A stretch of 64,000 nucleotides of DNA, taken from contig NC_134838.1 of assembly GCF_965363235.1 (NCBI RefSeq), positions 1,493,001 through 1,557,000 of the forward strand. The letters are read 5' to 3'. The position numbers and the translations under genes are program-made. The notes below the pieces were generated by a model. It was not told the DNA's origin, made no database searches, and worked only from the letters and a program-made list of their open reading frames with translations. This DNA is from Mytilus galloprovincialis. Lineage: Eukaryota; Mollusca; Bivalvia; Mytilida; Mytilidae. This document shows, in pieces, positions 4,425 to 64,000 of the stretch. Every line of letters starts with the position of its first letter. The first letter of the stretch is position 1.

Positions 4425-4840
4425 GTATTGTCCAGTATTTGGTAGTCGTTTTTATGTACTAGAAGGGTTGCACATATTTTTCTAGGTTATTGTCCAGTAT
4501 TTTGGTAATCGTTTTTATGTACTAGAAGGGTTGCACATATTTTTCTTGGGTATTGTCCAGTATTTTGGTAATCGGGTTTATGTACTAAAGGGTTGCACAT
4601 ATTTTTCTGGGTATTGTCCAGTATTTTGGTAGTCTTGCACATATTTTTCTGGGTACTGTGGGTACTGTCCAGGATTTTAATAGTCCGTGTTATGTTCTAA
4701 AAGGGCTGTACATATTTTTCTGGGTATTGTCCAGTATTTTGGTAGTCCGTGTTATGTACTAAAAGGGTTGAAAATATTTTTTCTGGGTATTGTCCAGTAT
4801 TTTGGTAGTCCGTTTTATGTACTAAAAGTTTTTTTTTACA
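4425..4840. repeat. Minisatellite of 60-70 bp units
   Basis: The phrase GTCCAGTATTTTGGTA recurs about seven times, each followed by TATGTACTA(G/A)AAGGGTTG and CACATATTTTTCT, with unit length varying by small indels. Confidence 0.9.
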
Positions 4841-37379: not shown

Positions 37380-38117
37380 ATGTCAACAACAAAACTCAAT
37401 AAATACTTACGTCAGCCAACCACTCCAATAACTGGAAAGAAGAAACTAACACCTGTACTCTTTGCAGACAGTAAAGGCAACTACCTTGAAAAGCAAATCA
37501 AACCAGGCATTGACCACCACATTAAATTTTGGTGTGCAAAGTCCAGAACAACATCTAAAGGACTTCACTGGCTACAGCAAAATTAAGCCCATAAAATTGG
37601 CCACCTGGATAATATATCAATATATATATGGTTGGGTACATGCGATTTGACAGCATTCGATCCAAAGACAAGATACGTCACACTACATCCTAAACCTGAA
37701 GAAGCTGTCGAAACCGCCACTCAAAATTTTCGAAATATTGCAGAACTTCTACGTCCATATGCCAACTGTAAATTAACCTTCATTGAAACTCCTCCATACT
37801 CAATTCAACAGTGGAATATTAAACAGAAACATCCTGATACCAACCAATTCATTAATCAAGACAGTGCCTTAAGCAGATACATCTACCAACTAAATCAAAA
37901 CATTAGGACTATAAATCAGGAACTTGGAGTTGTATCACCTTCACTCTCCGTTGACCTAAGCCACTGCCAAAGCAAAAACTCAAAAAATCGCCACAAAAGG
38001 CTAGCAGACAAGTACAACTTTACTCTATACAAGGACGGAGTACATCCAGATCCCCTCCTGGCTCAAGTTTGGATGCGTAAAATTGGCAAACTTATGCAAA
38101 CCGACTGTTTCACCTAA
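37380..38117 (+). pseudogene. SGNH/GDSL-hydrolase-like ORF of the LINE, one premature stop
   Basis: One frame with a single TAA (37584-37586) covers about 246 codons. Blocks in order: PVLFADSKGNYL (nucleophile block, Ser in DSK), a middle region, IYIWLGTCDLTAFDP (the position of the GxND block, with C for N), and YKDGVHPDPLLAQVWMRKIG near the C-terminus (the D-x-x-H catalytic dyad). SGNH/esterase domains are known in ORF1 proteins of some CR1-like and RTE-like LINEs; here it is a separate ORF ahead of a zinc-finger ORF1. The GTG at 37365 is an alternative start; I chose the first ATG. The stop makes this copy inactive. Confidence 0.7.
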
Positions 38118-38299
38118 ATTTAAATAAAGAATACAACTCTAAAAACCAATATCAACAAGAACTTCAAAGCAATATCAACAAATACTTTAAACCAATACCA
38201 ACAAGAACTTTAAAGCAATACCAACTATATTATTATTAACTTTCTGTTTCCATAACAACTTCAGGCCACGAGTAGACACAGAGTGCGTTTGATTAGTAA

Positions 38300-38650
38300 T
38301 TTGCAGTCGACAGTGGGATTATCCACGACGTACCTTATTGCTGATCAATCGTAATCTAGTGCATTGGACCCATATATTCCAACCCGAAGAAACAAGGATA
38401 TAACAAAACCATAGCTTAAAGAGTTAAAAAGTGCCATCCATTATACTGACATAATACCATATAAAAATAGTGAATACAAAACAGCTGGGAACCATAAATC
38501 AACAATCAAAAAGGAAATAATCTTGACTTAAACATTCTCTTTGTACGTATAGACTCTCCCATATTATATTCTGAATAAAGACTGCTGGTCAGTGAATTGC
38601 AGTCGATAGTGGGATTATCCACGACGTACCTTTTTGCTGATCAGTAGTAA
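38300..38650. repeat. Repeated 55-bp block in the LINE leader
   Basis: TTGCAGTCGACAGTGGGATT then ATCCACGACGTACCTT and TTGCTGATCA at 38300-38353 recurs at 38596-38650 with three or four changes. The second copy ends about 40 bp before the ATG at 38688. Confidence 0.9.
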
Positions 38651-38826
38651 GAGGTTTTTTTCTCCAAGTCAGACAACAAATATAAAAATGGCGAGCAATT
38701 CTGAAATGCAAGTCGTAAGAAGGAAAGAGGATGCAAAAATACACATAGAGATCATAAAGAATTATTCCCTTAATGTAGATAAAGCACTGCTAAAAAAAGC
38801 TAGAAGCAACTCAGCGCTCCACAAGC

Positions 38827-41070
38827 ATGGAATACAAGCAAACAAATGGAGGACTAGTCATTAAAGCAGATGCAGCAACATTTGAACTTCTGAAACATGC
38901 AACTGTTGCTTATTTCGAGGAATTGCCATGCAATATAGGCAAAGCCACTATCCAAAGAGAAACTGACAGTTCGAAAAATGCCACGGTGCAAATAACTATA
39001 AAGATGAAAGAAAAATGTGGCAAAACCTACACAGTCAACCTGTACCTTACTACCTGTACATTAATGGTAAATGGGAAAAATCCTGAAAATTTTGGCGACA
39101 GAGACATAAAGGAAATACATAAGCTTATAGAAAATGTGAATAATGGAGATAAGAACAAAACCATCACTAAATTAAATGAGATCATGAAAAGCAAACTTGA
39201 ACAAGCTCTACAAGGAAAAAGAGTACAACCAAAATATGCAGATAAAGATGAAAAAGTCAGCATTCAATGTTTCAAATGTACCAAGAATTGTAGAACAAAA
39301 AGCACATTCTGTAACTCAGGCCGACATTGGGTACACTACAACTGCCAACGCCTCTCAACAAAGGAGATCGAATTGTTAGAAAAGGAAGAACTTGAAGACT
39401 ACACATGTCGAATATGCCAAGATGTCAACCTGAAAATATTAGAAAAAGTATTGTCTCCAGTAAAAAAAGGTGCAAACAGTAAAACGTCTTACCATCACAA
39501 TGACGTACCAGCAATCACCCAAGAAATAAGCAGTAGCCGTAATGATGACTCAACTGAAAAAAGTCCTGAAACATGCAATATATGTGACACAATCATAATG
39601 GAAGATAAATATGAAATCTGTGATATTTGTAATGATATAGCTCATCCTGAGTGCATGACAATCAGTGGTAACAGTCTCACATGCCACTCCTGCTGCAACA
39701 CAATCGAAAGACTGGAACCAACTCAAGATAAAAATGAACAGATTGATACTAGCCAAACATTTATAAAGTCTTGTGAATTGCCTGAAAATGAAGAAAACAA
39801 CCCAGAGCAATCCCAGGAGACGGCTACTATAAGAACAAATAGGCCTAAAAGACAGGAACTGCATAACAATCGTGAAATAGCAAATAACAACCAACAATAT
39901 GCACAAGAGAAAAAGACAAACCAGAGAAATGGGAAAAAAACAACACAAAGGACAAACCTTGATCCATTCCCAACTCATGAACAATCAACATCAGAGCGTA
40001 TTGAGCAAGATGAGGTTGCAATAGTAAAACTAAGAGAGATCCGTGAGAGAGAACTTAAATTGCGAAAGGCAGAAGAACATCTGAAAATGAAAGAAAAAAT
40101 ATTCAAAGAAGAACAGTCTAAAATAGTGCTCCTGGAAACTCGTTGCCAATACCTAGAATCCAAGAATTGTGAATTGGAATCATTAGTCAATACAATGAAA
40201 CGTAGACTTGACATGAACACTAGTACTAATATCAGTAATCCGCAAGGTATGGGGCATTCAACACCATTAAATGAACAAATGCAAGGAAAAATTAACAACA
40301 GAATACTAGCCTTCCATGAAAAATTAACAAATCTCGTTATGGATCAGGTAGAAAATCAGCTACAGAAAGTAGCAGAGAGCCTTAACATCACTGATGAAAG
40401 ACTAGACATACATCATGAAAATAGGGTCAATAACCCAAGCTATGAAAGTAATCAAGAAAATGGTAGAGCTGCAATGAATATAGCCTCAACAGTAAGCCCG
40501 AGCGTACCTACAAACCCTGAGGTCATCCAGAACCCTCTCAAAGTTTGCAACGGCGTAGCACAAGTAAATATGAACTACCCGCCAAGAATAGAGTCTACAA
40601 GCTTAAAACCAGGGTGCAATATAATGACATCAGGATATAATGTAAATGAAGGCCATAGAGGACAAGTCTTAGGCCCTGATGCTATCAACAACAACGATAC
40701 TGTTCGGTACAACTTTCCGCCGCCTATGTATAATGCTCACCAGAATACAGGACAAATGACACCTATCATCATAACCCAGATGCCATTCGTACATAATACT
40801 GCCTCACAGGAAAGACCCACTATACCATCATTGCCGCAAAAATTAACATCAATCAACAGGCCTCAGTACATACAACTGAATAATAGAAAACATGTTACGG
40901 TACAAGACCGGAGACGTAACGAGCACAGCAGAAACAATAGTGCTAGAACCGATGTTTCTGACATAGAGTCAACTAATCTCAATCAACAAGTCTTAGTTGC
41001 CAACCCGTTAATTCCAAATCACCAACAGCATTTTTTAGGCCAACAAAGCCTCCAATGGCAGATCAGGTAG
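38827..41070 (+). CDS. LINE ORF1: two zinc fingers and coiled coil, 747 aa
   Basis: A PHD-like finger at residues 148-197 (C148, C151, C162, H170, C173, C194, C197) and a second C4-H-C3 finger at 250-289 (C250, C253, C265, C268, H273, C276, C286, C289). A charged coiled coil spans 395-462, followed by an Asn/Pro/Gln-rich C-terminus. By analogy with LINE ORF1 proteins, it probably binds RNA and multimerises in the retrotransposition particle. A frame starting at ATG 38688 overlaps the first 38 nt in another phase and encodes a charged 59-residue peptide; a small frameshift could have split the true N-terminus there. The stop overlaps the ORF2 start. Confidence 0.85.
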   Translation: MEYKQTNGGLVIKADAATFELLKHATVAYFEELPCNIGKATIQRETDSSKNATVQITIKMKEKCGKTYTVNLYLTTCTLMVNGKNPENFGDRDIKEIHKLIENVNNGDKNKTITKLNEIMKSKLEQALQGKRVQPKYADKDEKVSIQCFKCTKNCRTKSTFCNSGRHWVHYNCQRLSTKEIELLEKEELEDYTCRICQDVNLKILEKVLSPVKKGANSKTSYHHNDVPAITQEISSSRNDDSTEKSPETCNICDTIIMEDKYEICDICNDIAHPECMTISGNSLTCHSCCNTIERLEPTQDKNEQIDTSQTFIKSCELPENEENNPEQSQETATIRTNRPKRQELHNNREIANNNQQYAQEKKTNQRNGKKTTQRTNLDPFPTHEQSTSERIEQDEVAIVKLREIRERELKLRKAEEHLKMKEKIFKEEQSKIVLLETRCQYLESKNCELESLVNTMKRRLDMNTSTNISNPQGMGHSTPLNEQMQGKINNRILAFHEKLTNLVMDQVENQLQKVAESLNITDERLDIHHENRVNNPSYESNQENGRAAMNIASTVSPSVPTNPEVIQNPLKVCNGVAQVNMNYPPRIESTSLKPGCNIMTSGYNVNEGHRGQVLGPDAINNNDTVRYNFPPPMYNAHQNTGQMTPIIITQMPFVHNTASQERPTIPSLPQKLTSINRPQYIQLNNRKHVTVQDRRRNEHSRNNSARTDVSDIESTNLNQQVLVANPLIPNHQQHFLGQQSLQWQIR

Positions 41071-44000
41071 CACAACCAACAGAAGCCTCAAATACTACAC
41101 TGCAAATAGTATCATTCAACTGTAAAAGTATTAAATCATGCAGTGCAACGGTTAGGGATCTGATTAGACAAAATGACTTTGTATTAATTCAAGAACATTG
41201 GCTATTTGAAGGACAATTAAATCTGATAGGAGAAATCGATGCAAATGTGAACTATGCCGCTAAAGGTGTGGATAAGTATGATCCACTCCCACCGATATAT
41301 TTGCCAAGAGGTTATGGAGGAGTAGCTATAATATGGAAAATGAATTTGGATAGTATAATTAAAACATTAGATGACGGAAGAGAGCGTATACAATGCGTGG
41401 AAGTCTTAGGAAAAGATAATAACAATCTGATATTAATATCTATTTATTTGCCATCAACTGGAAGTCGAGATCATTATGAGGAATTTAAAGACACTATAGA
41501 CCAACTTAATGAAATAGTGCTAAAATATCAAGATACACATTACATAATAATTGGAGGAGATCTAAACGAAGACTTAGGAAACATCGATAGAATAAATAAG
41601 AGAAAGGACTATCTGGAAAAATTTGTAAAAGAGACTGGACTTAAATACGACAATGAAGGAAAGACATTCGTGAAGGTCAATGTAGAAGAATGCTCAGAAT
41701 TGGACTACTTCCTACATAAACTTGGAAAAATCAAGCCAACACACAAGCAAGTGCTGAACAGCGTTATGAACAACACGTCGGACCATCATCCTATAAAAAT
41801 GAAAATATTATATGGAATCTCGAATGAGGCTGATTGTAAAAATCTAACTAAGGACTGTACAAACCGAGCTGTCAAATGGGATAAAGTTGATATTGACCTA
41901 TATGTAGCCATTACAAATGAACAGTCAGATTCTATACTGAACATGCCGCTAGAAACATTAGAACAAGCTACATCCGTCTTAGAGCAGGTACATGGATTTC
42001 TAAATGATGCTGCCGCTACATGTGCCGCAAACAAGCCTAGGTACAACGCAAAACCTAAATTGAATGTATGGTCTCCAGATATAAAGTTAGCCCTAGACGA
42101 GATGCGTAAATATTATGCGCAGTGGGTCAAGCAAGGAAAAATAAAGGACCCTGAAAATAATATATACCAACAAAGATTAAGAACTAAAAAGGAATTTAGG
42201 CGACAGGTGCGAATTGAAAATGCTAAAGTCAAAGATACTGAGAAACAACGCATAATGGAAACAAGAACAAAGGATACAAAACTATTCCATCAACTTGTAA
42301 AGTTCAATAGAAAGAACAGGGGTAATGCTATCATGGATCTGCACGTAGGAGACATATGTATGTCTGGTGAGCAAACTGTTATGGAAGGCTTCAAACAGCA
42401 CTTTAGAAACCTAGCAACTCCAGAGGAATCTACAGTCTTAGAGAATAGACAATATCACCAGCAAGTAGAATATGAAATAGGATTAATTACAGAGATGGTG
42501 AAAGATAAGAATATACCACCGGCCACACTAGAAGAACTACAAAAGGCCATCAAATCAATTAATAAAGGAAAATCAGCTGATATCTATGGAATCACTGTCG
42601 AACATATATTGCATGCAGGAAAAAATCTGGAAATGTTGCTGCTGAACCTCATAAACATAATATTCAAAGAAGGCAAGGTGCCAGACATGCTAAAGGAGGG
42701 ATTACTCACCCCCGTGTTTAAGAACAAAGGCGAGAAAAACATGGCAACAAATTACAGAGGAATCACTGTATTACCGGTACTAAACAAAGTGATAGAAACA
42801 ATTGTGAAATTAAGGATCAACCCAGCAGTACTTATAACACAAAATGTAACTCAACGAGGATTTACAGCAGGCTCAGGACCGGCAAATGCAGCATTACCAG
42901 TCGAAGAAATATACCGTGAAGCCAAAGACAACAATCAGAATATGAACTTGTACTGCTGGACGCAAAATCAGCCTTTGATGTAGTTATACATTCCCATCTA
43001 ATGAAGCGACTCTATCATGCTGGAATTGATGATAAACACTGGACAATCATTCAGAGTATGCACACAAATGCAACAAGTGCAGTTAAATGGAATGGCAAAA
43101 CTTCAGAGCTATTTAATGTACTACAAGGAGTACGCCAGGGAGGGGTCCTAAGTACGGATCTATACAAGCTTTACATCAATCCTCTACTTAACATGCTGGA
43201 AACATCAAATTTAGGATGTAGAATTGGAAATATACTCTGCAATACTAGCGCATGTGCAGATGATGTCGCACTCATGAGCAAAAAGACAACCGATATGCAA
43301 GTACAAATCAATATGGCAAACACCTTTGCTGGCATGGAAGGATATAAACTACAGCCAAAAAAAGCGTCGCTATTAACATCAAACCTAAGCCAACAAAGAA
43401 AGAAACGCTACTGGAAGAATATACATTGAATGAAGCTATTATGCCAAGAGTTGACTCAGCTATGCATTTAGGAATAATCCGAACGAACTCTATGAAGCAA
43501 AATATCATAGCAAATATTGAGGAGAATATAAAAAAATCAAGAAGAAGTGCTTATGCTCTACTTGGCAGTGGCTTCCATGGTGAAAATGGACTAGATATGG
43601 AAACTATAATACACCTGTTTAAAATCTACATCTTGCCGGTGTTATTATATGGAATGGATCTACTAACACCACAATCTCTGGATCTAGAGAAATTGGAAAA
43701 ATTTCAAAAGAAAATGCTCAAGCAACTGATGTCACTACCAACTAATACACCAGATCCGGCAATTAACATCTTGACGGGAATACTACCAGTAGAAGCGCAA
43801 ATACACTTAAAGGTCATGACCCTCTTCATAAATGTATGTACCCAACCCAACGAAAGTTTAGAAAAACAACTAGCAAGGAGGCAATTGTGCATCAAGTCAA
43901 TGAATAGTAACAGCTGGTTTATTCAAGTAAAAACAATCATGCTAAAATACGACCTAGGAAATGCAAGTGAGTGGCTAGATATTCAGATAAAAAAGGATGA

Positions 44001-44574
44001 ACTGTTAAATAAAGCTAAAAAAGGTATCAATGCCTACTGGATTGAACGAACAACATCTCTAGCTAAGCTCTATACCGGCCTTCGATACCTCAACAGTGAT
44101 ATATTCATGCCAGGAAAAATACATCCAATATTGCGAATCAAGCACCAATCTCCAAGAGACAGCAAGAGAGTACCTACCAATATCAAACTATTAACTGGAA
44201 CTTATATTCTACAACCTCTAAGATATAAGATATACAAAGAAGGAACTGAAGATCATTGTATAGCCTGTGAGTGTAAAGAAGAGACATTAGAACATTTGCT
44301 TATAGAATGTGAAGCGTGGAATTACCTGCGAGATCCAATATTACAAACAATTAAGAACCTACTAACCACAAACGGGAATGTGCGAGTAGAAGATCTCACA
44401 TGTGAAATGACAATTCAAGTATTAATGGACATTACAAAAATACAAAAGATATACAGAATCACATCTGACCTGATATCTCAAATAGAATTCCAATCAAGAA
44501 GACTAGTGTTTCTCATACACAACGCACGATATCAACTGGTGATGAAAGACCAAGCAAAGAAAAAGGCTGCCTAA
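41055..44574 (+). pseudogene. LINE ORF2: APE endonuclease and reverse transcriptase, two frameshifts
   Basis: ATG at 41055 lies 16 nt inside ORF1. The APE endonuclease spans residues 15-255 with N22, E47 (IQEHW), D169/N171 (GGDLNED) and SDHHP at 242-246, all catalytic positions present. RT follows: NKGKSADIYGITVEHIL, LLTPVFKNKG, NYRGITVLPVLNKVIE, then a frameshift near 42945 just before motif A (LDAKSAFDVV). Motif B is GVRQGGVLST, motif C is ACADDVALM (C instead of Y/F before ADD). A second frameshift sits at an A7 run near 43358. The last part (to 44574) has a C-x2-C-x8-H-x4-C finger (CIACECKEETLEHLLIEC). Decay seems mild, so the copy is fairly young, or the shifts are sequencing errors. Confidence 0.9.
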
Positions 44575-47064: not shown

Positions 47065-48673
47065 TTGACTGTGAATAGAAGAAGCCAGTTGAAAGTATAT
47101 AGTTACAGCTTCTATTTGAATAGTTATTTTAAAGCTCGACTATTTTATTTATTACTTGGGAATGTACACAACTTTTCCGATTATAACCATTTGGCAAATC
47201 AAATTGCACAAACCTATCGCAATATAAATTTATGCACTCAGTTTGCTTTGTAATCTGGAATTCTGGATGCATTTATTGTTATCTATCATATCTTTATATT
47301 TTGTTTCCTACATGAATGCCTTTATATTCTCAACTCGTATTTGAAGCTGTCTTTACTCATGGTAGATGTTGTATGCGATGAAACCTGTGGCATGCAATTG
47401 ATTGGGACCCATAAAACATCTCAAATTTTAAGGATTTCCTGATTTTACTTAAATCAAGGAATTATATATTTAAATATACAATTCCTTGCTTAAATCCATT
47501 CAAACATTCTACAGGAAAACTTAGTTTTGCCGAAGAATTTCTTAATTCATGAGTTTAATATGAATACCTGTACACACTTTCAAAATAACCAATTTATATA
47601 AAAAGGTATGTAGATGTAAAAAGATACCAGAATTAAAATGATGTACACCAGACACGAGTTAAGTCTACAAAAAAAGCATCAGTGACGCTCGAATGAAAAA
47701 AGTTAAAAGGCTAAATACATTACAAAGTTAAGGAATCTATTCCTTGGGTAGACAATCCTTAGCTTTTCGAAAAGATCAAAGTTTATAATAGGACAGTGAC
47801 TCAAAAAAGAAACAAAAGAGAAACAACTCGAAGTCAGAATACCGTGATTAATGATGACCGTGCTTGAAAGTCACATGTAAAGCTTATTCTGCCGTGTCCT
47901 GAATTTAGATAACAAAAACGAAAATAAGCTTTCACGAGTGTTATTGCATGCAAGTAGTATTTTAGCCCACGAAATAGTAAATAGAAAGCATCTCACTGAT
48001 ACTCAGGAAAAGAATACGCATTTGCGTCATCACATATCTTAATCTAATAGTTGTCAAACGGCCTACATTAAACGTTTTGACTCCGGATTCATTGACATTT
48101 TATCCGGAATTTTTGAGAACGCAAACCGATAGTGTGCTTTTGAAATGTGATCTATAATGTGAATGAATCAAGACGTGTAGGATAGTTGGTCAACACAATG
48201 AATACTATTTTCAAAACCGTACCATAGTACAAATATGTAGATGCTATAAGGTTAAACTATTAAAACAAACAAACAAAAATTGAATCAAAAGTTTATTATT
48301 AACTAACGTTCCTGTTAGTAATTTCTTTCAAATTCTTTTGAATATATATAATATCAATAAAGACAATATTAATCAAAACCAAGGAGTAAACAAAGACTCA
48401 CAAAACCAAAGGACATTTACATCAACAGTTATAAATAATAATTAAGAAACAAAACGAACTCCTCTAGAAACCGGGAGTGAAATCAGGTGCTCCGGAAGGG
48501 TAAGCATTTCTTGCACCGTATACGGCACCCGTCGTGTTATCTCTTTGTTCAGTTCGGTAATGATGGAAGGTTATTATGACTGAGGAAGAATATCAGATAT
48601 GATTTCTGACACACTTTTGTCATAATGGCCAATCAGCTCATGATGGCGACCGGAAATTTCTTGGGTGATTACC
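47065..48673. other. Spacer before the satellite, no gene recognised
   Basis: No frame with recognisable domains. A segment at about 48455-48570 (inverted GCTTACCCTTCCGGAGCACC, then TGATTTCACTCCCGGTTTC) resembles a dispersed repeat I recall from mussel genomes, unchecked. Confidence 0.4.
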
Positions 48674-51600
48674 TTAAGGTAGCACTCCACAGTTAGGTGT
48701 GTAGTTTCGCATTTTGGCCCCTGTGGATTTTTCAAATATGAGAGCTAGTGTGCAATAAAATTCATTTTTGGATAGCTGAGTATTAAAATAGCCTTTGTAT
48801 TGGGTTTATATGAACATCAAGATTATGTAATGTATGTAATATAGGCTGTTTTCTGTATGACTGTCCGTATTTGCATGTCCCTACCATACATTGGTCCGGC
48901 AATTATTGTAATGTTTTTTTCCAACTTTTTATCGCACGAACTTTGTGATTGGATTTTACGAAAAAATGAGGCGAAAGACACCCATTTTTTATTTGATCAC
49001 TAGGAAGATTTATGAAAACAGTTTCTAAAAAGGTATCACTCAAAGGCATTGAAATTCTAGTTTGATCCAAATTTTGGGGGGATATGTGACATGTCCACCC
49101 CCCTTTTTGCAATATTTTATGATAAATAAATGCAGAATGTTGCCATGGATACACATAAAGGGAATTAATTTTCACTCTTTTAACTTTTGAAAATCAAATC
49201 TATGGAATATACTGATTACATACATATGCACATGTACAACACAAACAGTTAGGTTAATGTATTAGAAATCCAGGAATAGGAGATGATAAAACATTTTGTG
49301 GCTCATTTTTGATTTTATTTTCTAACTGTGGAGTGCTACCTTATGGCACATCAGAAAGCACAGAAATGCACTTTTTAAGATAAAATTTACCCCAAATCTT
49401 TAGTCTTTAATGTTCTTGTTTTAGTTCTGAAGGTAAAAAATCTGCTAGGAATGCAATTTATGTTTATTTTATTGTTTACTGTCCTTAGCAACCAAATATA
49501 CACATTTTGGCACTTAGACATGTTGCGGTCTTAAATTTGTACTCCATTAGCTTCGCCATTGTAACCAAAGATTGCGCTTTATATGATATCCTCAGAATGT
49601 ATCGCTTCATATTTTTGAATGCGAATAAGTCAAATAAACATTTTTAGTAGGATTTTATATTATAATTTGGCATTAATTAGATTTAATGATGCCAGTACTG
49701 CTAGAAATTTATACCCTGCTTGAGAGCTTCTAAACCAAGGTTAGGTATGCTATTTACAGCAAAATTGACCTATAAGTGCTTTCAAATACCTAAAAATTGT
49801 ACAATTTGTCCTCTTTTAAGGTAATTTTATGATTTTAAATAAGATAATGGGAAAAGTTTTAGAAATTTACCCCAAAAATGAGACAGACTTGAAGTTTTTC
49901 ACTATGATCCAGCATTTATTTTTAAATCACTTTTTGTCGCGTTTCAACATCAACTGCTAACCTTCATAAAATCTTTATTACTGAACCAATTTTAAAAACT
50001 AAGGTACCATTTTCATCGTAACAGCTAGTAGAACACAGAAAATATAATAAAAATTGAGGCAGGAGGGGAAAAATTTTGCCTTAAGGTAGCACTCCACAGT
50101 TAGGTGTGTAGTTTCGCATTTTGGCCCCTGTGGATTTTTCAAATATGAGAGCTAGTGTGCAATAAAATTCATTTTTGGATAGCTGAGTATTAAAATAGCC
50201 TTTGTATTGGGTTTATATGAACATCAAGATTATGTAATGTATGTAATATAGGCTGTTTTCTGTATGACTGTCCGTATTTGCATGTCCCTACCATACATTG
50301 GTCCGGCAATTATTGTAATGTTTTTTTCCAACTTTTTATCGCACGAACTTTGTGATTGGATTTTACGAAAAAATGAGGCGAAAGACACCCATTTTTTATT
50401 TGATCACTAGGAAGATTTATGAAAACAGTTTCTAAAAAGGTATCACTCAAAGGCATTGAAATTCTAGTTTGATCCAAATTTTGGGGGGATATGTGACATG
50501 TCCACCCCCCTTTTTGCAATATTTTATGATAAATAAATGCAGAATGTTGCCATGGATACACATAAAGGGAATTAATTTTCACTCTTTTAACTTTTGAAAA
50601 TCAAATCTATGGAATATACTGATTACATACATATGCACATGTACAACACAAACAGTTAGGTTAATGTATTAGAAATCCAGGAATAGGAGATGATAAAACA
50701 TTTTGTGGCTCATTTTTGATTTTATTTTCTAACTGTGGAGTGCTACCTTATGGCACATCAGAAAGCACAGAAATGCACTTTTTAAGATAAAATTTACCCC
50801 AAATCTTTAGTCTTTAATGTTCTTGTTTTAGTTCTGAAGGTAAAAAATCTGCTAGGAATGCAATTTATGTTTATTTTATTGTTTACTGTCCTTAGCAACC
50901 AAATATACACATTTTGGCACTTAGACATGTTGCGGTCTTAAATTTGTACTCCATTAGCTTCGCCATTGTAACCAAAGATTGCGCTTTATATGATATCCTC
51001 AGAATGTATCGCTTCATATTTTTGAATGCGAATAAGTCAAATAAACATTTTTAGTAGGATTTTATATTATAATTTGGCATTAATTAGATTTAATGATGCC
51101 AGTACTGCTAGAAATTTATACCCTGCTTGAGAGCTTCTAAACCAAGGTTAGGTATGCTATTTACAGCAAAATTGACCTATAAGTGCTTTCAAATACCTAA
51201 AAATTGTACAATTTGTCCTCTTTTAAGGTAATTTTATGATTTTAAATAAGATAATGGGAAAAGTTTTAGAAATTTACCCCAAAAATGAGACAGACTTGAA
51301 GTTTTTCACTATGATCCAGCATTTATTTTTAAATCACTTTTTGTCGCGTTTCAACATCAACTGCTAACCTTCATAAAATCTTTATTACTGAACCAATTTT
51401 AAAAACTAAGGTACCATTTTCATCGTAACAGCTAGTAGAACACAGAAAATATAATAAAAATTGAGGCAGGAGGGGAAAAATTTTGCCTTAAGGTAGCACT
51501 CCACAGTTAGGTGTGTAGTTTCGCATTTTGGCCCCTGTGGATTTTTCAAATATGAGAGCTAGTGTGCAATAAAATTCATTTTTGGATAGCTGAGTATTAA

Positions 51601-54600
51601 AATAGCCTTTGTATTGGGTTTATATGAACATCAAGATTATGTAATGTATGTAATATAGGCTGTTTTCTGTATGACTGTCCGTATTTGCATGTCCCTACCA
51701 TACATTGGTCCGGCAATTATTGTAATGTTTTTTTCCAACTTTTTATCGCACGAACTTTGTGATTGGATTTTACGAAAAAATGAGGCGAAAGACACCCATT
51801 TTTTATTTGATCACTAGGAAGATTTATGAAAACAGTTTCTAAAAAGGTATCACTCAAAGGCATTGAAATTCTAGTTTGATCCAAATTTTGGGGGGATATG
51901 TGACATGTCCACCCCCCTTTTTGCAATATTTTATGATAAATAAATGCAGAATGTTGCCATGGATACACATAAAGGGAATTAATTTTCACTCTTTTAACTT
52001 TTGAAAATCAAATCTATGGAATATACTGATTACATACATATGCACATGTACAACACAAACAGTTAGGTTAATGTATTAGAAATCCAGGAATAGGAGATGA
52101 TAAAACATTTTGTGGCTCATTTTTGATTTTATTTTCTAACTGTGGAGTGCTACCTTATGGCACATCAGAAAGCACAGAAATGCACTTTTTAAGATAAAAT
52201 TTACCCCAAATCTTTAGTCTTTAATGTTCTTGTTTTAGTTCTGAAGGTAAAAAATCTGCTAGGAATGCAATTTATGTTTATTTTATTGTTTACTGTCCTT
52301 AGCAACCAAATATACACATTTTGGCACTTAGACATGTTGCGGTCTTAAATTTGTACTCCATTAGCTTCGCCATTGTAACCAAAGATTGCGCTTTATATGA
52401 TATCCTCAGAATGTATCGCTTCATATTTTTGAATGCGAATAAGTCAAATAAACATTTTTAGTAGGATTTTATATTATAATTTGGCATTAATTAGATTTAA
52501 TGATGCCAGTACTGCTAGAAATTTATACCCTGCTTGAGAGCTTCTAAACCAAGGTTAGGTATGCTATTTACAGCAAAATTGACCTATAAGTGCTTTCAAA
52601 TACCTAAAAATTGTACAATTTGTCCTCTTTTAAGGTAATTTTATGATTTTAAATAAGATAATGGGAAAAGTTTTAGAAATTTACCCCAAAAATGAGACAG
52701 ACTTGAAGTTTTTCACTATGATCCAGCATTTATTTTTAAATCACTTTTTGTCGCGTTTCAACATCAACTGCTAACCTTCATAAAATCTTTATTACTGAAC
52801 CAATTTTAAAAACTAAGGTACCATTTTCATCGTAACAGCTAGTAGAACACAGAAAATATAATAAAAATTGAGGCAGGAGGGGAAAAATTTTGCCTTAAGG
52901 TAGCACTCCACAGTTAGGTGTGTAGTTTCGCATTTTGGCCCCTGTGGATTTTTCAAATATGAGAGCTAGTGTGCAATAAAATTCATTTTTGGATAGCTGA
53001 GTATTAAAATAGCCTTTGTATTGGGTTTATATGAACATCAAGATTATGTAATGTATGTAATATAGGCTGTTTTCTGTATGACTGTCCGTATTTGCATGTC
53101 CCTACCATACATTGGTCCGGCAATTATTGTAATGTTTTTTTCCAACTTTTTATCGCACGAACTTTGTGATTGGATTTTACGAAAAAATGAGGCGAAAGAC
53201 ACCCATTTTTTATTTGATCACTAGGAAGATTTATGAAAACAGTTTCTAAAAAGGTATCACTCAAAGGCATTGAAATTCTAGTTTGATCCAAATTTTGGGG
53301 GGATATGTGACATGTCCACCCCCCTTTTTGCAATATTTTATGATAAATAAATGCAGAATGTTGCCATGGATACACATAAAGGGAATTAATTTTCACTCTT
53401 TTAACTTTTGAAAATCAAATCTATGGAATATACTGATTACATACATATGCACATGTACAACACAAACAGTTAGGTTAATGTATTAGAAATCCAGGAATAG
53501 GAGATGATAAAACATTTTGTGGCTCATTTTTGATTTTATTTTCTAACTGTGGAGTGCTACCTTATGGCACATCAGAAAGCACAGAAATGCACTTTTTAAG
53601 ATAAAATTTACCCCAAATCTTTAGTCTTTAATGTTCTTGTTTTAGTTCTGAAGGTAAAAAATCTGCTAGGAATGCAATTTATGTTTATTTTATTGTTTAC
53701 TGTCCTTAGCAACCAAATATACACATTTTGGCACTTAGACATGTTGCGGTCTTAAATTTGTACTCCATTAGCTTCGCCATTGTAACCAAAGATTGCGCTT
53801 TATATGATATCCTCAGAATGTATCGCTTCATATTTTTGAATGCGAATAAGTCAAATAAACATTTTTAGTAGGATTTTATATTATAATTTGGCATTAATTA
53901 GATTTAATGATGCCAGTACTGCTAGAAATTTATACCCTGCTTGAGAGCTTCTAAACCAAGGTTAGGTATGCTATTTACAGCAAAATTGACCTATAAGTGC
54001 TTTCAAATACCTAAAAATTGTACAATTTGTCCTCTTTTAAGGTAATTTTATGATTTTAAATAAGATAATGGGAAAAGTTTTAGAAATTTACCCCAAAAAT
54101 GAGACAGACTTGAAGTTTTTCACTATGATCCAGCATTTATTTTTAAATCACTTTTTGTCGCGTTTCAACATCAACTGCTAACCTTCATAAAATCTTTATT
54201 ACTGAACCAATTTTAAAAACTAAGGTACCATTTTCATCGTAACAGCTAGTAGAACACAGAAAATATAATAAAAATTGAGGCAGGAGGGGAAAAATTTTGC
54301 CTTAAGGTAGCACTCCACAGTTAGGTGTGTAGTTTCGCATTTTGGCCCCTGTGGATTTTTCAAATATGAGAGCTAGTGTGCAATAAAATTCATTTTTGGA
54401 TAGCTGAGTATTAAAATAGCCTTTGTATTGGGTTTATATGAACATCAAGATTATGTAATGTATGTAATATAGGCTGTTTTCTGTATGACTGTCCGTATTT
54501 GCATGTCCCTACCATACATTGGTCCGGCAATTATTGTAATGTTTTTTTCCAACTTTTTATCGCACGAACTTTGTGATTGGATTTTACGAAAAAATGAGGC

Positions 54601-57600
54601 GAAAGACACCCATTTTTTATTTGATCACTAGGAAGATTTATGAAAACAGTTTCTAAAAAGGTATCACTCAAAGGCATTGAAATTCTAGTTTGATCCAAAT
54701 TTTGGGGGGATATGTGACATGTCCACCCCCCTTTTTGCAATATTTTATGATAAATAAATGCAGAATGTTGCCATGGATACACATAAAGGGAATTAATTTT
54801 CACTCTTTTAACTTTTGAAAATCAAATCTATGGAATATACTGATTACATACATATGCACATGTACAACACAAACAGTTAGGTTAATGTATTAGAAATCCA
54901 GGAATAGGAGATGATAAAACATTTTGTGGCTCATTTTTGATTTTATTTTCTAACTGTGGAGTGCTACCTTATGGCACATCAGAAAGCACAGAAATGCACT
55001 TTTTAAGATAAAATTTACCCCAAATCTTTAGTCTTTAATGTTCTTGTTTTAGTTCTGAAGGTAAAAAATCTGCTAGGAATGCAATTTATGTTTATTTTAT
55101 TGTTTACTGTCCTTAGCAACCAAATATACACATTTTGGCACTTAGACATGTTGCGGTCTTAAATTTGTACTCCATTAGCTTCGCCATTGTAACCAAAGAT
55201 TGCGCTTTATATGATATCCTCAGAATGTATCGCTTCATATTTTTGAATGCGAATAAGTCAAATAAACATTTTTAGTAGGATTTTATATTATAATTTGGCA
55301 TTAATTAGATTTAATGATGCCAGTACTGCTAGAAATTTATACCCTGCTTGAGAGCTTCTAAACCAAGGTTAGGTATGCTATTTACAGCAAAATTGACCTA
55401 TAAGTGCTTTCAAATACCTAAAAATTGTACAATTTGTCCTCTTTTAAGGTAATTTTATGATTTTAAATAAGATAATGGGAAAAGTTTTAGAAATTTACCC
55501 CAAAAATGAGACAGACTTGAAGTTTTTCACTATGATCCAGCATTTATTTTTAAATCACTTTTTGTCGCGTTTCAACATCAACTGCTAACCTTCATAAAAT
55601 CTTTATTACTGAACCAATTTTAAAAACTAAGGTACCATTTTCATCGTAACAGCTAGTAGAACACAGAAAATATAATAAAAATTGAGGCAGGAGGGGAAAA
55701 ATTTTGCCTTAAGGTAGCACTCCACAGTTAGGTGTGTAGTTTCGCATTTTGGCCCCTGTGGATTTTTCAAATATGAGAGCTAGTGTGCAATAAAATTCAT
55801 TTTTGGATAGCTGAGTATTAAAATAGCCTTTGTATTGGGTTTATATGAACATCAAGATTATGTAATGTATGTAATATAGGCTGTTTTCTGTATGACTGTC
55901 CGTATTTGCATGTCCCTACCATACATTGGTCCGGCAATTATTGTAATGTTTTTTTCCAACTTTTTATCGCACGAACTTTGTGATTGGATTTTACGAAAAA
56001 ATGAGGCGAAAGACACCCATTTTTTATTTGATCACTAGGAAGATTTATGAAAACAGTTTCTAAAAAGGTATCACTCAAAGGCATTGAAATTCTAGTTTGA
56101 TCCAAATTTTGGGGGGATATGTGACATGTCCACCCCCCTTTTTGCAATATTTTATGATAAATAAATGCAGAATGTTGCCATGGATACACATAAAGGGAAT
56201 TAATTTTCACTCTTTTAACTTTTGAAAATCAAATCTATGGAATATACTGATTACATACATATGCACATGTACAACACAAACAGTTAGGTTAATGTATTAG
56301 AAATCCAGGAATAGGAGATGATAAAACATTTTGTGGCTCATTTTTGATTTTATTTTCTAACTGTGGAGTGCTACCTTATGGCACATCAGAAAGCACAGAA
56401 ATGCACTTTTTAAGATAAAATTTACCCCAAATCTTTAGTCTTTAATGTTCTTGTTTTAGTTCTGAAGGTAAAAAATCTGCTAGGAATGCAATTTATGTTT
56501 ATTTTATTGTTTACTGTCCTTAGCAACCAAATATACACATTTTGGCACTTAGACATGTTGCGGTCTTAAATTTGTACTCCATTAGCTTCGCCATTGTAAC
56601 CAAAGATTGCGCTTTATATGATATCCTCAGAATGTATCGCTTCATATTTTTGAATGCGAATAAGTCAAATAAACATTTTTAGTAGGATTTTATATTATAA
56701 TTTGGCATTAATTAGATTTAATGATGCCAGTACTGCTAGAAATTTATACCCTGCTTGAGAGCTTCTAAACCAAGGTTAGGTATGCTATTTACAGCAAAAT
56801 TGACCTATAAGTGCTTTCAAATACCTAAAAATTGTACAATTTGTCCTCTTTTAAGGTAATTTTATGATTTTAAATAAGATAATGGGAAAAGTTTTAGAAA
56901 TTTACCCCAAAAATGAGACAGACTTGAAGTTTTTCACTATGATCCAGCATTTATTTTTAAATCACTTTTTGTCGCGTTTCAACATCAACTGCTAACCTTC
57001 ATAAAATCTTTATTACTGAACCAATTTTAAAAACTAAGGTACCATTTTCATCGTAACAGCTAGTAGAACACAGAAAATATAATAAAAATTGAGGCAGGAG
57101 GGGAAAAATTTTGCCTTAAGGTAGCACTCCACAGTTAGGTGTGTAGTTTCGCATTTTGGCCCCTGTGGATTTTTCAAATATGAGAGCTAGTGTGCAATAA
57201 AATTCATTTTTGGATAGCTGAGTATTAAAATAGCCTTTGTATTGGGTTTATATGAACATCAAGATTATGTAATGTATGTAATATAGGCTGTTTTCTGTAT
57301 GACTGTCCGTATTTGCATGTCCCTACCATACATTGGTCCGGCAATTATTGTAATGTTTTTTTCCAACTTTTTATCGCACGAACTTTGTGATTGGATTTTA
57401 CGAAAAAATGAGGCGAAAGACACCCATTTTTTATTTGATCACTAGGAAGATTTATGAAAACAGTTTCTAAAAAGGTATCACTCAAAGGCATTGAAATTCT
57501 AGTTTGATCCAAATTTTGGGGGGATATGTGACATGTCCACCCCCCTTTTTGCAATATTTTATGATAAATAAATGCAGAATGTTGCCATGGATACACATAA

Positions 57601-60600
57601 AGGGAATTAATTTTCACTCTTTTAACTTTTGAAAATCAAATCTATGGAATATACTGATTACATACATATGCACATGTACAACACAAACAGTTAGGTTAAT
57701 GTATTAGAAATCCAGGAATAGGAGATGATAAAACATTTTGTGGCTCATTTTTGATTTTATTTTCTAACTGTGGAGTGCTACCTTATGGCACATCAGAAAG
57801 CACAGAAATGCACTTTTTAAGATAAAATTTACCCCAAATCTTTAGTCTTTAATGTTCTTGTTTTAGTTCTGAAGGTAAAAAATCTGCTAGGAATGCAATT
57901 TATGTTTATTTTATTGTTTACTGTCCTTAGCAACCAAATATACACATTTTGGCACTTAGACATGTTGCGGTCTTAAATTTGTACTCCATTAGCTTCGCCA
58001 TTGTAACCAAAGATTGCGCTTTATATGATATCCTCAGAATGTATCGCTTCATATTTTTGAATGCGAATAAGTCAAATAAACATTTTTAGTAGGATTTTAT
58101 ATTATAATTTGGCATTAATTAGATTTAATGATGCCAGTACTGCTAGAAATTTATACCCTGCTTGAGAGCTTCTAAACCAAGGTTAGGTATGCTATTTACA
58201 GCAAAATTGACCTATAAGTGCTTTCAAATACCTAAAAATTGTACAATTTGTCCTCTTTTAAGGTAATTTTATGATTTTAAATAAGATAATGGGAAAAGTT
58301 TTAGAAATTTACCCCAAAAATGAGACAGACTTGAAGTTTTTCACTATGATCCAGCATTTATTTTTAAATCACTTTTTGTCGCGTTTCAACATCAACTGCT
58401 AACCTTCATAAAATCTTTATTACTGAACCAATTTTAAAAACTAAGGTACCATTTTCATCGTAACAGCTAGTAGAACACAGAAAATATAATAAAAATTGAG
58501 GCAGGAGGGGAAAAATTTTGCCTTAAGGTAGCACTCCACAGTTAGGTGTGTAGTTTCGCATTTTGGCCCCTGTGGATTTTTCAAATATGAGAGCTAGTGT
58601 GCAATAAAATTCATTTTTGGATAGCTGAGTATTAAAATAGCCTTTGTATTGGGTTTATATGAACATCAAGATTATGTAATGTATGTAATATAGGCTGTTT
58701 TCTGTATGACTGTCCGTATTTGCATGTCCCTACCATACATTGGTCCGGCAATTATTGTAATGTTTTTTTCCAACTTTTTATCGCACGAACTTTGTGATTG
58801 GATTTTACGAAAAAATGAGGCGAAAGACACCCATTTTTTATTTGATCACTAGGAAGATTTATGAAAACAGTTTCTAAAAAGGTATCACTCAAAGGCATTG
58901 AAATTCTAGTTTGATCCAAATTTTGGGGGGATATGTGACATGTCCACCCCCCTTTTTGCAATATTTTATGATAAATAAATGCAGAATGTTGCCATGGATA
59001 CACATAAAGGGAATTAATTTTCACTCTTTTAACTTTTGAAAATCAAATCTATGGAATATACTGATTACATACATATGCACATGTACAACACAAACAGTTA
59101 GGTTAATGTATTAGAAATCCAGGAATAGGAGATGATAAAACATTTTGTGGCTCATTTTTGATTTTATTTTCTAACTGTGGAGTGCTACCTTATGGCACAT
59201 CAGAAAGCACAGAAATGCACTTTTTAAGATAAAATTTACCCCAAATCTTTAGTCTTTAATGTTCTTGTTTTAGTTCTGAAGGTAAAAAATCTGCTAGGAA
59301 TGCAATTTATGTTTATTTTATTGTTTACTGTCCTTAGCAACCAAATATACACATTTTGGCACTTAGACATGTTGCGGTCTTAAATTTGTACTCCATTAGC
59401 TTCGCCATTGTAACCAAAGATTGCGCTTTATATGATATCCTCAGAATGTATCGCTTCATATTTTTGAATGCGAATAAGTCAAATAAACATTTTTAGTAGG
59501 ATTTTATATTATAATTTGGCATTAATTAGATTTAATGATGCCAGTACTGCTAGAAATTTATACCCTGCTTGAGAGCTTCTAAACCAAGGTTAGGTATGCT
59601 ATTTACAGCAAAATTGACCTATAAGTGCTTTCAAATACCTAAAAATTGTACAATTTGTCCTCTTTTAAGGTAATTTTATGATTTTAAATAAGATAATGGG
59701 AAAAGTTTTAGAAATTTACCCCAAAAATGAGACAGACTTGAAGTTTTTCACTATGATCCAGCATTTATTTTTAAATCACTTTTTGTCGCGTTTCAACATC
59801 AACTGCTAACCTTCATAAAATCTTTATTACTGAACCAATTTTAAAAACTAAGGTACCATTTTCATCGTAACAGCTAGTAGAACACAGAAAATATAATAAA
59901 AATTGAGGCAGGAGGGGAAAAATTTTGCCTTAAGGTAGCACTCCACAGTTAGGTGTGTAGTTTCGCATTTTGGCCCCTGTGGATTTTTCAAATATGAGAG
60001 CTAGTGTGCAATAAAATTCATTTTTGGATAGCTGAGTATTAAAATAGCCTTTGTATTGGGTTTATATGAACATCAAGATTATGTAATGTATGTAATATAG
60101 GCTGTTTTCTGTATGACTGTCCGTATTTGCATGTCCCTACCATACATTGGTCCGGCAATTATTGTAATGTTTTTTTCCAACTTTTTATCGCACGAACTTT
60201 GTGATTGGATTTTACGAAAAAATGAGGCGAAAGACACCCATTTTTTATTTGATCACTAGGAAGATTTATGAAAACAGTTTCTAAAAAGGTATCACTCAAA
60301 GGCATTGAAATTCTAGTTTGATCCAAATTTTGGGGGGATATGTGACATGTCCACCCCCCTTTTTGCAATATTTTATGATAAATAAATGCAGAATGTTGCC
60401 ATGGATACACATAAAGGGAATTAATTTTCACTCTTTTAACTTTTGAAAATCAAATCTATGGAATATACTGATTACATACATATGCACATGTACAACACAA
60501 ACAGTTAGGTTAATGTATTAGAAATCCAGGAATAGGAGATGATAAAACATTTTGTGGCTCATTTTTGATTTTATTTTCTAACTGTGGAGTGCTACCTTAT

Positions 60601-63600
60601 GGCACATCAGAAAGCACAGAAATGCACTTTTTAAGATAAAATTTACCCCAAATCTTTAGTCTTTAATGTTCTTGTTTTAGTTCTGAAGGTAAAAAATCTG
60701 CTAGGAATGCAATTTATGTTTATTTTATTGTTTACTGTCCTTAGCAACCAAATATACACATTTTGGCACTTAGACATGTTGCGGTCTTAAATTTGTACTC
60801 CATTAGCTTCGCCATTGTAACCAAAGATTGCGCTTTATATGATATCCTCAGAATGTATCGCTTCATATTTTTGAATGCGAATAAGTCAAATAAACATTTT
60901 TAGTAGGATTTTATATTATAATTTGGCATTAATTAGATTTAATGATGCCAGTACTGCTAGAAATTTATACCCTGCTTGAGAGCTTCTAAACCAAGGTTAG
61001 GTATGCTATTTACAGCAAAATTGACCTATAAGTGCTTTCAAATACCTAAAAATTGTACAATTTGTCCTCTTTTAAGGTAATTTTATGATTTTAAATAAGA
61101 TAATGGGAAAAGTTTTAGAAATTTACCCCAAAAATGAGACAGACTTGAAGTTTTTCACTATGATCCAGCATTTATTTTTAAATCACTTTTTGTCGCGTTT
61201 CAACATCAACTGCTAACCTTCATAAAATCTTTATTACTGAACCAATTTTAAAAACTAAGGTACCATTTTCATCGTAACAGCTAGTAGAACACAGAAAATA
61301 TAATAAAAATTGAGGCAGGAGGGGAAAAATTTTGCCTTAAGGTAGCACTCCACAGTTAGGTGTGTAGTTTCGCATTTTGGCCCCTGTGGATTTTTCAAAT
61401 ATGAGAGCTAGTGTGCAATAAAATTCATTTTTGGATAGCTGAGTATTAAAATAGCCTTTGTATTGGGTTTATATGAACATCAAGATTATGTAATGTATGT
61501 AATATAGGCTGTTTTCTGTATGACTGTCCGTATTTGCATGTCCCTACCATACATTGGTCCGGCAATTATTGTAATGTTTTTTTCCAACTTTTTATCGCAC
61601 GAACTTTGTGATTGGATTTTACGAAAAAATGAGGCGAAAGACACCCATTTTTTATTTGATCACTAGGAAGATTTATGAAAACAGTTTCTAAAAAGGTATC
61701 ACTCAAAGGCATTGAAATTCTAGTTTGATCCAAATTTTGGGGGGATATGTGACATGTCCACCCCCCTTTTTGCAATATTTTATGATAAATAAATGCAGAA
61801 TGTTGCCATGGATACACATAAAGGGAATTAATTTTCACTCTTTTAACTTTTGAAAATCAAATCTATGGAATATACTGATTACATACATATGCACATGTAC
61901 AACACAAACAGTTAGGTTAATGTATTAGAAATCCAGGAATAGGAGATGATAAAACATTTTGTGGCTCATTTTTGATTTTATTTTCTAACTGTGGAGTGCT
62001 ACCTTATGGCACATCAGAAAGCACAGAAATGCACTTTTTAAGATAAAATTTACCCCAAATCTTTAGTCTTTAATGTTCTTGTTTTAGTTCTGAAGGTAAA
62101 AAATCTGCTAGGAATGCAATTTATGTTTATTTTATTGTTTACTGTCCTTAGCAACCAAATATACACATTTTGGCACTTAGACATGTTGCGGTCTTAAATT
62201 TGTACTCCATTAGCTTCGCCATTGTAACCAAAGATTGCGCTTTATATGATATCCTCAGAATGTATCGCTTCATATTTTTGAATGCGAATAAGTCAAATAA
62301 ACATTTTTAGTAGGATTTTATATTATAATTTGGCATTAATTAGATTTAATGATGCCAGTACTGCTAGAAATTTATACCCTGCTTGAGAGCTTCTAAACCA
62401 AGGTTAGGTATGCTATTTACAGCAAAATTGACCTATAAGTGCTTTCAAATACCTAAAAATTGTACAATTTGTCCTCTTTTAAGGTAATTTTATGATTTTA
62501 AATAAGATAATGGGAAAAGTTTTAGAAATTTACCCCAAAAATGAGACAGACTTGAAGTTTTTCACTATGATCCAGCATTTATTTTTAAATCACTTTTTGT
62601 CGCGTTTCAACATCAACTGCTAACCTTCATAAAATCTTTATTACTGAACCAATTTTAAAAACTAAGGTACCATTTTCATCGTAACAGCTAGTAGAACACA
62701 GAAAATATAATAAAAATTGAGGCAGGAGGGGAAAAATTTTGCCTTAAGGTAGCACTCCACAGTTAGGTGTGTAGTTTCGCATTTTGGCCCCTGTGGATTT
62801 TTCAAATATGAGAGCTAGTGTGCAATAAAATTCATTTTTGGATAGCTGAGTATTAAAATAGCCTTTGTATTGGGTTTATATGAACATCAAGATTATGTAA
62901 TGTATGTAATATAGGCTGTTTTCTGTATGACTGTCCGTATTTGCATGTCCCTACCATACATTGGTCCGGCAATTATTGTAATGTTTTTTTCCAACTTTTT
63001 ATCGCACGAACTTTGTGATTGGATTTTACGAAAAAATGAGGCGAAAGACACCCATTTTTTATTTGATCACTAGGAAGATTTATGAAAACAGTTTCTAAAA
63101 AGGTATCACTCAAAGGCATTGAAATTCTAGTTTGATCCAAATTTTGGGGGGATATGTGACATGTCCACCCCCCTTTTTGCAATATTTTATGATAAATAAA
63201 TGCAGAATGTTGCCATGGATACACATAAAGGGAATTAATTTTCACTCTTTTAACTTTTGAAAATCAAATCTATGGAATATACTGATTACATACATATGCA
63301 CATGTACAACACAAACAGTTAGGTTAATGTATTAGAAATCCAGGAATAGGAGATGATAAAACATTTTGTGGCTCATTTTTGATTTTATTTTCTAACTGTG
63401 GAGTGCTACCTTATGGCACATCAGAAAGCACAGAAATGCACTTTTTAAGATAAAATTTACCCCAAATCTTTAGTCTTTAATGTTCTTGTTTTAGTTCTGA
63501 AGGTAAAAAATCTGCTAGGAATGCAATTTATGTTTATTTTATTGTTTACTGTCCTTAGCAACCAAATATACACATTTTGGCACTTAGACATGTTGCGGTC

Positions 63601-64000
63601 TTAAATTTGTACTCCATTAGCTTCGCCATTGTAACCAAAGATTGCGCTTTATATGATATCCTCAGAATGTATCGCTTCATATTTTTGAATGCGAATAAGT
63701 CAAATAAACATTTTTAGTAGGATTTTATATTATAATTTGGCATTAATTAGATTTAATGATGCCAGTACTGCTAGAAATTTATACCCTGCTTGAGAGCTTC
63801 TAAACCAAGGTTAGGTATGCTATTTACAGCAAAATTGACCTATAAGTGCTTTCAAATACCTAAAAATTGTACAATTTGTCCTCTTTTAAGGTAATTTTAT
63901 GATTTTAAATAAGATAATGGGAAAAGTTTTAGAAATTTACCCCAAAAATGAGACAGACTTGAAGTTTTTCACTATGATCCAGCATTTATTTTTAAATCAC
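48674..64000. repeat. Satellite array, 1,407-bp unit, about 10.9 copies (runs off the window)
   Basis: Units start (TTAA) at 48674, 50081, 51488, 52895, 54302, 55709, 57116, 58523, 59930, 61337 and 62744; the last is cut by the window end. Every landmark recurs at exactly 1,407 bp and I saw no differences between units. Each unit is a 663-bp MITE (after TTAA) plus a 744-bp spacer starting TTATGGCACATC and ending GGGGAAAAATTTTGCC. The array begins with the MITE; the sequence left of it (TTGGGTGATTACC) is not spacer. Confidence 0.97.
48678..49340. mobile_element. TTAA-type MITE forming half of each satellite unit (first copy)
   Basis: Perfect 19-bp TIRs: GGTAGCACTCCACAGTTAG at the left and its reverse complement at 49322-49340. 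Flanks are TTAA on the left and TTAT on the right. The interior holds a 90-codon minus-strand frame (48903-49175), repeated in all units, with no recognised domain and no sign that it is a gene. Terminal bases and target resemble the MITE at 24602-25192. The same element recurs every 1,407 bp to the window end. Confidence 0.85.

Follow-up and report, generated by a model that had tools for sequence, protein, structure and literature searches.

The tandem array at the right edge of the 64,000-nucleotide stretch analysed here (the window; C1:1493001-1557000, where C1 is NC_134838.1) probably belongs to a family of satellite arrays that spread as composite transposons, and we put at roughly 0.7 the probability that MITE-S-MITE composites transpose as units and then multiply locally by unequal exchange. 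The anatomy of these arrays is well supported, whereas we infer the mechanism, in which two same-orientation copies of a non-autonomous TIR element would enclose the 740-bp sequence S to form a composite transposon, and a transposase supplied in trans would take the two outermost ends and move MITE-S-MITE, or a longer MITE-(S-MITE)k, in one piece to a new TNA site. Unequal exchange between the direct 663-bp repeats would then multiply S-MITE units into a homogeneous array that keeps the original ends and duplication as its bounds, and an inner MITE might occasionally be lost through deletion between CCTTAAGG and CCTTATGG to give S-S. It is not settled how a satellite gets to new places in a genome, and MITE-S-MITE arrays may offer one readable route, with the cargo carried between two small transposon copies. 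The arrays still carry legible insertion scars: their flanking 3-bp duplications match, most of their sizes follow 663+1407k, and a single insertion is represented both with one S and with two S. Seeding and local amplification can therefore be separated and dated within a single genome. The genome searched was one assembly of 1.385 Gb in 331 contigs.

Within the window the array occupies 48672..64000 (+ strand). Ten units of 1,407 bp are complete, the eleventh is cut by the window edge after 1,259 bp, and the array continues beyond. Comparison of the 10 full units and the final 1,259 bp revealed zero letter differences, although unit identity within arrays could partly be an assembly effect. 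The first 663-bp MITE lies at 48678..49340 (+), with a left 19-bp terminal inverted repeat at 48678..48696 (+) and a right one at 49322..49340 (-), and copies recur each 1,407 bp. The 19-bp end GGTAGCACTCCACAGTTAG is present in 11 copies in the window and its reverse complement in 11, with a spacing of GGTAGCACTCCACAGTTAG of exactly 1,407 bp in 10/10 intervals; a search allowing up to 4 edits found no additional copies elsewhere in the window. Each MITE is followed by S and its flanks (TTATGG...CCTTAA; first copy 49341..50084, +), which measure 744 bp from MITE to MITE. The initial annotation had divided the 1,407-bp unit into an element of 663 bp, whose 19-bp inverted ends are perfect, and a further 744 bp, and this is confirmed letter by letter. 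At its left start (48672) the array reads CCTTAA then GG, in which TAA at 48675..48677 (+) is the left half of a 3-bp target duplication; the right half is missing, as the right end is truncated inside a MITE at C1:1600433. Followed to that point, the full array holds 31 copies of S and 24 complete MITEs, plus one MITE that a later insert has split and another that is truncated. The insert, outside the window at C1:1561924-1580554, is 18,631 bp long, ends CACTGGG...CCCAGTG with inverted identity over at least 80 bp, has CAT on both sides and contains no stop-to-stop frame of at least 150 codons; judged by its ends it is probably CACTA-like. Other features of the window include open frames of non-LTR retrotransposon type at 37587-44571, among them one at 40977-42980 matching endonuclease families PF03372 and PF14529, an unconnected, strongly strand-skewed tandem repeat with a 65-bp unit that covers ~1.5 kb at 22526-23986, and other short tandem arrays at 4425-4828, 21427-21710 and 31212-31539. 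Rfam and tRNA scans of the window returned no matches.

The 663-bp element has a 19-bp perfect TIR, a longest stop-to-stop frame of 96 codons and solo copies on many contigs, all of which are properties of a MITE. Its single-strand fold is stronger than that of shuffled sequences (z -3.0, 20 shuffles), as expected since the ends are inverted. A 23-bp pattern of TTAA plus the element end has 534 exact matches genome-wide, compared with 0 for the reversed-pattern control; 53 of these have a non-C base in front and are scattered over the genome, and solo-type matches were found on C1-C9 and C11-C14, the large chromosomes probably numbering about 14. To the initial annotation this was a TTAA MITE. 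We fetched the far side of 20 of the 53 non-C TTAA ends, 17 of which had a recognisable other end; three lacked a recognisable TIR (one adjoins S letters), four of the 17 adjoin S, and the other 13 were used. With TTAA at the near end, 9/13 solo far ends read TAA followed by a varying base, while the remaining four read TTAA, TAC, CAA and ATA. Filing under TTAA (piggyBac/Kolobok) was rejected on these counts, as the solo copies carry a 3-bp duplication and only 1/13 far ends reads TTAA. Two solo MITEs at C1:53.78 and 53.93 Mb, ~150 kb apart, have common flanking letters and look like one insertion duplicated together with its surroundings.

A further 222 ends genome-wide are preceded by TTA, TGA or TCA. 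Facing ends on C1-C5 were paired by coordinates from 132 ends, made up of 100 of the 222 (those among the ends listed) and 32 of the 53 TTAA ends, the other 21 of which lie beyond C1-C5. Among the ends listed, which contain only TTA, TGA, TCA or non-C TTAA ends and to which pairs with other letters, including TAA ends after a non-T letter or after CT, are invisible, matching 3-bp duplications were obtained in 29/29 pairs: 17/17 of solo size (shuffle mean 6.1; 0/20,000 shuffles reach 17), 11/11 of array size (shuffle mean 3.55; 0/20,000 reach 11) and one of 773 bp. Because the coordinate lists are blind to other letters, the four deviating far ends of 13 are the fairer gauge of decay. With 107 of the 132 listed ends being TTA or TAA and 25 being TGA or TCA, the target duplication is a 3-bp TNA, which fits better than strict TWA, and solo far ends and paired ends both speak against the TTAA assignment. 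The solo-size pairs (at least 17) also supply the solo MITEs without S that had been sought, so the spacer is not an obligate companion of the element. By its ends, the element is probably PIF/Harbinger-like: the available portion of PMC4482050 gives the PIF/Harbinger duplication as TWA and that of the related PHIS group as TNA within CTNAG, 3 bp as for the 663-bp element, and reports TIRs starting with GG, as here, in part of the superfamily. Unlike the strict TWA of PIF/Harbinger, 25/132 listed ends are TGA or TCA.

We read the outer ends of nine arrays, all on C1 or C7, that had been chosen via element or S matches independent of those ends. Of 17 outer ends, 15 lie exactly at a MITE terminus, two lie inside a MITE (the right ends of the window array and the C7:52.66 Mb array) and none lies in S. 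All six arrays with both ends read at a terminus are flanked by a matching 3-bp duplication, which on C1 is TTA at 57.59 Mb, TGA at 56.55 Mb, and TAA at 77.59 (array's strand), 57.36, 59.86 and 59.89 Mb. When letters and coordinates are combined (among the ends listed; two arrays are in both sets), matching duplications bound 15/15 arrays, 14 of them independent, with C1:59.86 and C1:59.89 Mb counted as one insertion. For 11 of these 15 arrays (among the ends listed), S letters were read or matched next to the end element on its inner side; C4:17.64 Mb and C5:68.47 Mb were counted as arrays on size fit alone, while C1:111.69 Mb (24,473 bp) and C5:71.97 Mb (2,622 bp) are of array size by coordinates alone and do not fit 663+1407k. 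Sizes agree with 663+1407k within 12 bp in 8/11 array-size pairs (k=1, 2, 3, 11), and three of the 11 are exact at 2070, 2070 and 16140 bp, again among the ends listed. The k=1 composites are those at C4:55.67, C5:68.47, C1:57.36, C1:59.86 and C1:110.68 Mb. The C1:56.55 Mb array spans 62,065 bp and has a longer unit of ~1,550 bp; in this array (C1:56.55-56.62 Mb) each MITE read is preceded by an additional segment in which MITE bases 1-20 are followed by S 616-732. At C7:52658992-52661604 the left outer MITE is broken by a ~2.6-kb insert with short inverted ends and a ~10-bp target duplication. The arrays are homogeneous and head-to-tail, as satellite DNA is, and they have the layout of a composite transposon, with two element copies around DNA and a single duplication around the whole. 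An insertion event does seem to have seeded them, as had been proposed for the window array, since they begin and stop at MITE ends with matching duplications.

The same terminal layout would be expected of a small LTR retrotransposon (TRIM/LARD) in which S would be the internal domain between terminal direct repeats of 663 bp, the solos would be solo-LTRs and the arrays would share LTRs. LTR elements have TG...CA ends and a 4-6-bp target duplication, whereas the copies here end GG...CC with a 19-bp perfect inversion, and all 28 pairs of solo or array size (among the ends listed) have a duplication of 3 bp. S does have a TGG 3 bp from its start, and the right copy is preceded by a purine run, but past TGGCA the presumed primer site is not the same in S as in a diverged sister sequence, S'. 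The layout itself has a precedent in biv-TRIM, which the available part of PMC6934838 describes in canonical, solo and tandem forms. On balance we regard an LTR origin as highly improbable.

The initial annotation regarded the 744-bp interval as a constant unique spacer, but S has a 740-bp period, is found at many loci and in places follows itself directly. There are 573 exact S starts genome-wide, a count whose pattern admits MITE-S junctions too, and 41 of them are S-S junctions of the TTAA type without a MITE between, 41 being the MITE-free TTAA count. We found 6 S-S junctions in the window array (near its right end), 2 at C1:57.59 Mb (part read), 0 at C1:77.59 Mb and 8 at C7:52.66 Mb, making 16 S-S versus 49 MITE-S junctions in these four stretches. 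These junctions are what would be expected if S were an old satellite in one monomer of which a MITE landed and rode along, the pair being spread by ordinary recombination, and a locus at C7:89.65 Mb with three S' and one S in direct tandem, with no MITE between, agrees with that scheme. It fails to predict outer ends at MITE termini (15/17) and matching duplications (15/15 arrays, among the ends listed). Furthermore, inner MITEs read CCTTAA/GG...CC/TTATGG, with TAA before the element and TTA after it, unlike the outcome of one insertion into an old satellite; this arrangement would follow from unequal exchange between two elements independently inserted on either side of S. We consider the old-satellite account improbable, and S as an independent element was rejected: TTAA plus the S start after a non-C base occurs at 2 places, both in arrays, with 1 match for the reversed control of that short pattern.

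Under composite transposition the S-S junctions would arise by loss of inner MITEs. With an S-S period of ~740 bp, 1,407 - 740 gives 667 bp, and the S-S units lack 667 bp, equal to the distance from CCTTAAGG to CCTTATGG. The left edge of inner MITEs carries CCTTAAGG (50079..50086, +), a near-repeat of the right-edge CCTTATGG (e.g. 49339-49346), and the junction letters are mostly CCTTAAGG and twice CCTTATGG. Precise 3-bp excision, which predicts 666 bp lost with CCTTAATGG or CCTTTATGG left behind, was rejected as the source; deletion between the two near-repeats appears to fit better.

The target of the C1:57.59 Mb array sits in a dispersed repeat, a related copy of which forms the left flank of the window array (48402..48659, +); others are found beside C7:52.66 Mb and at C1:57.59 Mb, where they flank or hold the array. 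The window array's left flank aligns across the C1:57.59 Mb site at ~75% over 79 columns, and the stretch beside C7:52.66 Mb does so at 73% over 233 columns, in both cases with no gap at the site; the two uninterrupted stretches serve as empty-site paralogues for this array. Outer and inner MITEs of one array share private variants: they differ in 0 columns at three left ends, in 2 at the C1:77.59 Mb right end (one a cutting artefact) and in 2 at C1:59.89 Mb, whereas MITEs of different arrays differ in 7-31. This comparison bears on a scheme in which extrachromosomal S-MITE circles recombine into resident solo MITEs, placing MITE-(S-MITE)k inside the solo's duplication with no composite transposition. 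Under circle integration, MITE ends and matching duplications are expected whatever the k, as observed among the ends listed, and resident solos are plentiful (at least 17 solo-size pairs), but hybrid outer copies with solo variants are expected too, and in the arrays read full length the outer copies match the inner ones. Later gene conversion could hide such hybrids, which softens the objection, and we judge circle integration unlikely though the most serious competitor to transposition among these schemes. In favour of small-composite founding, the array at C1:59.86 Mb has one S and that at C1:59.89 Mb, 29 kb away, has two, with identical flank letters over ~33 bp on each side, and the pair seems to be a single insertion present in two lengths. 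Taken as a whole the pattern would fit arrays that began as a small composite and afterwards gained or lost units through exchange between the direct 663-bp repeats.

MITE and S distances co-vary across 7 arrays (r 0.96, 16/5,040 permutations; r 0.56, 12/720 permutations, without the most distant array). The C7:89.65 Mb locus holds an older copy (MITE 96% and S 94% identical) joined to three copies of S', which is 67% identical to S over 626 columns, has a period of 741 bp and shows 0 and 2 differences between neighbouring copies. The S' copies follow an element 77% like the 663-bp MITE over 320 columns, and the junction letters, TTATGG and TTAAGG, are the same as in the S arrays. Since this sister has the same layout, the MITE-S partnership is older than the fresh arrays; a satellite of S predating the partnership would also fit. 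The initial annotation saw a transposon turning into a satellite, with a MITE beside a unique local spacer and the pair amplified on the spot. Seeding by insertion and the existence of solos survive from that reading, whereas the TTAA class and the local spacer do not: S is common to arrays on many contigs, and a local origin is further opposed by the co-variation of MITE and S and by the deeply diverged sister. It is possible, though we hold it clearly the less probable version, that whole multi-unit arrays transpose as single TIR elements, which would make the satellite a transposable element in its own right, with length shifting by unequal exchange between jumps, in an old cycle that has a roughly two-thirds-identical sister alongside.

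In bacterial composite transposons, two short element copies bound a stretch of DNA and are thought to move it, and direct copies permit its amplification. MITE-S-MITE resembles them in this two-copy bounding and direct-copy amplification; unlike them, it involves a eukaryotic element without coding capacity, and its cargo turns satellite. Transposon-linked dispersal of satellites has been proposed earlier (PMC5139131, PMC12628747, in the parts available), as has a hypothetical transposition-related shuffling of bivalve satellite monomers (PMC5139131, likewise in part), and the available text of PMC12628747 reviews tandem retrotransposons with LTRs in common as well as repeats that originate within MITEs. 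In the literature searched, mostly outside subscription journals, we found no satellite arrays recognised as bounded like composite MITE insertions. Bivalve TRIM elements occur in solo and tandem forms, and biv-TRIM, as far as the available part of PMC6934838 describes it, shows, like MITE-S, an internal part enclosed by direct terminal repeats, tandem arrays with common terminal repeats, and solos; unlike biv-TRIM, MITE-S has TIR elements with 3-bp TNA duplications as its terminal copies, and its solos are elements that have their own duplications. A MITE-type element is also tied to a tandem repeat in Tetris of Drosophila virilis (PMC4079207, in part) and in Xstir and miDNA4 of Xenopus (PMC12628747, in part). 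In the Xenopus elements, as that portion presents them, the repeats are internal to the element, whereas here complete elements stand on both sides of the repeat and the duplication surrounds the whole array.
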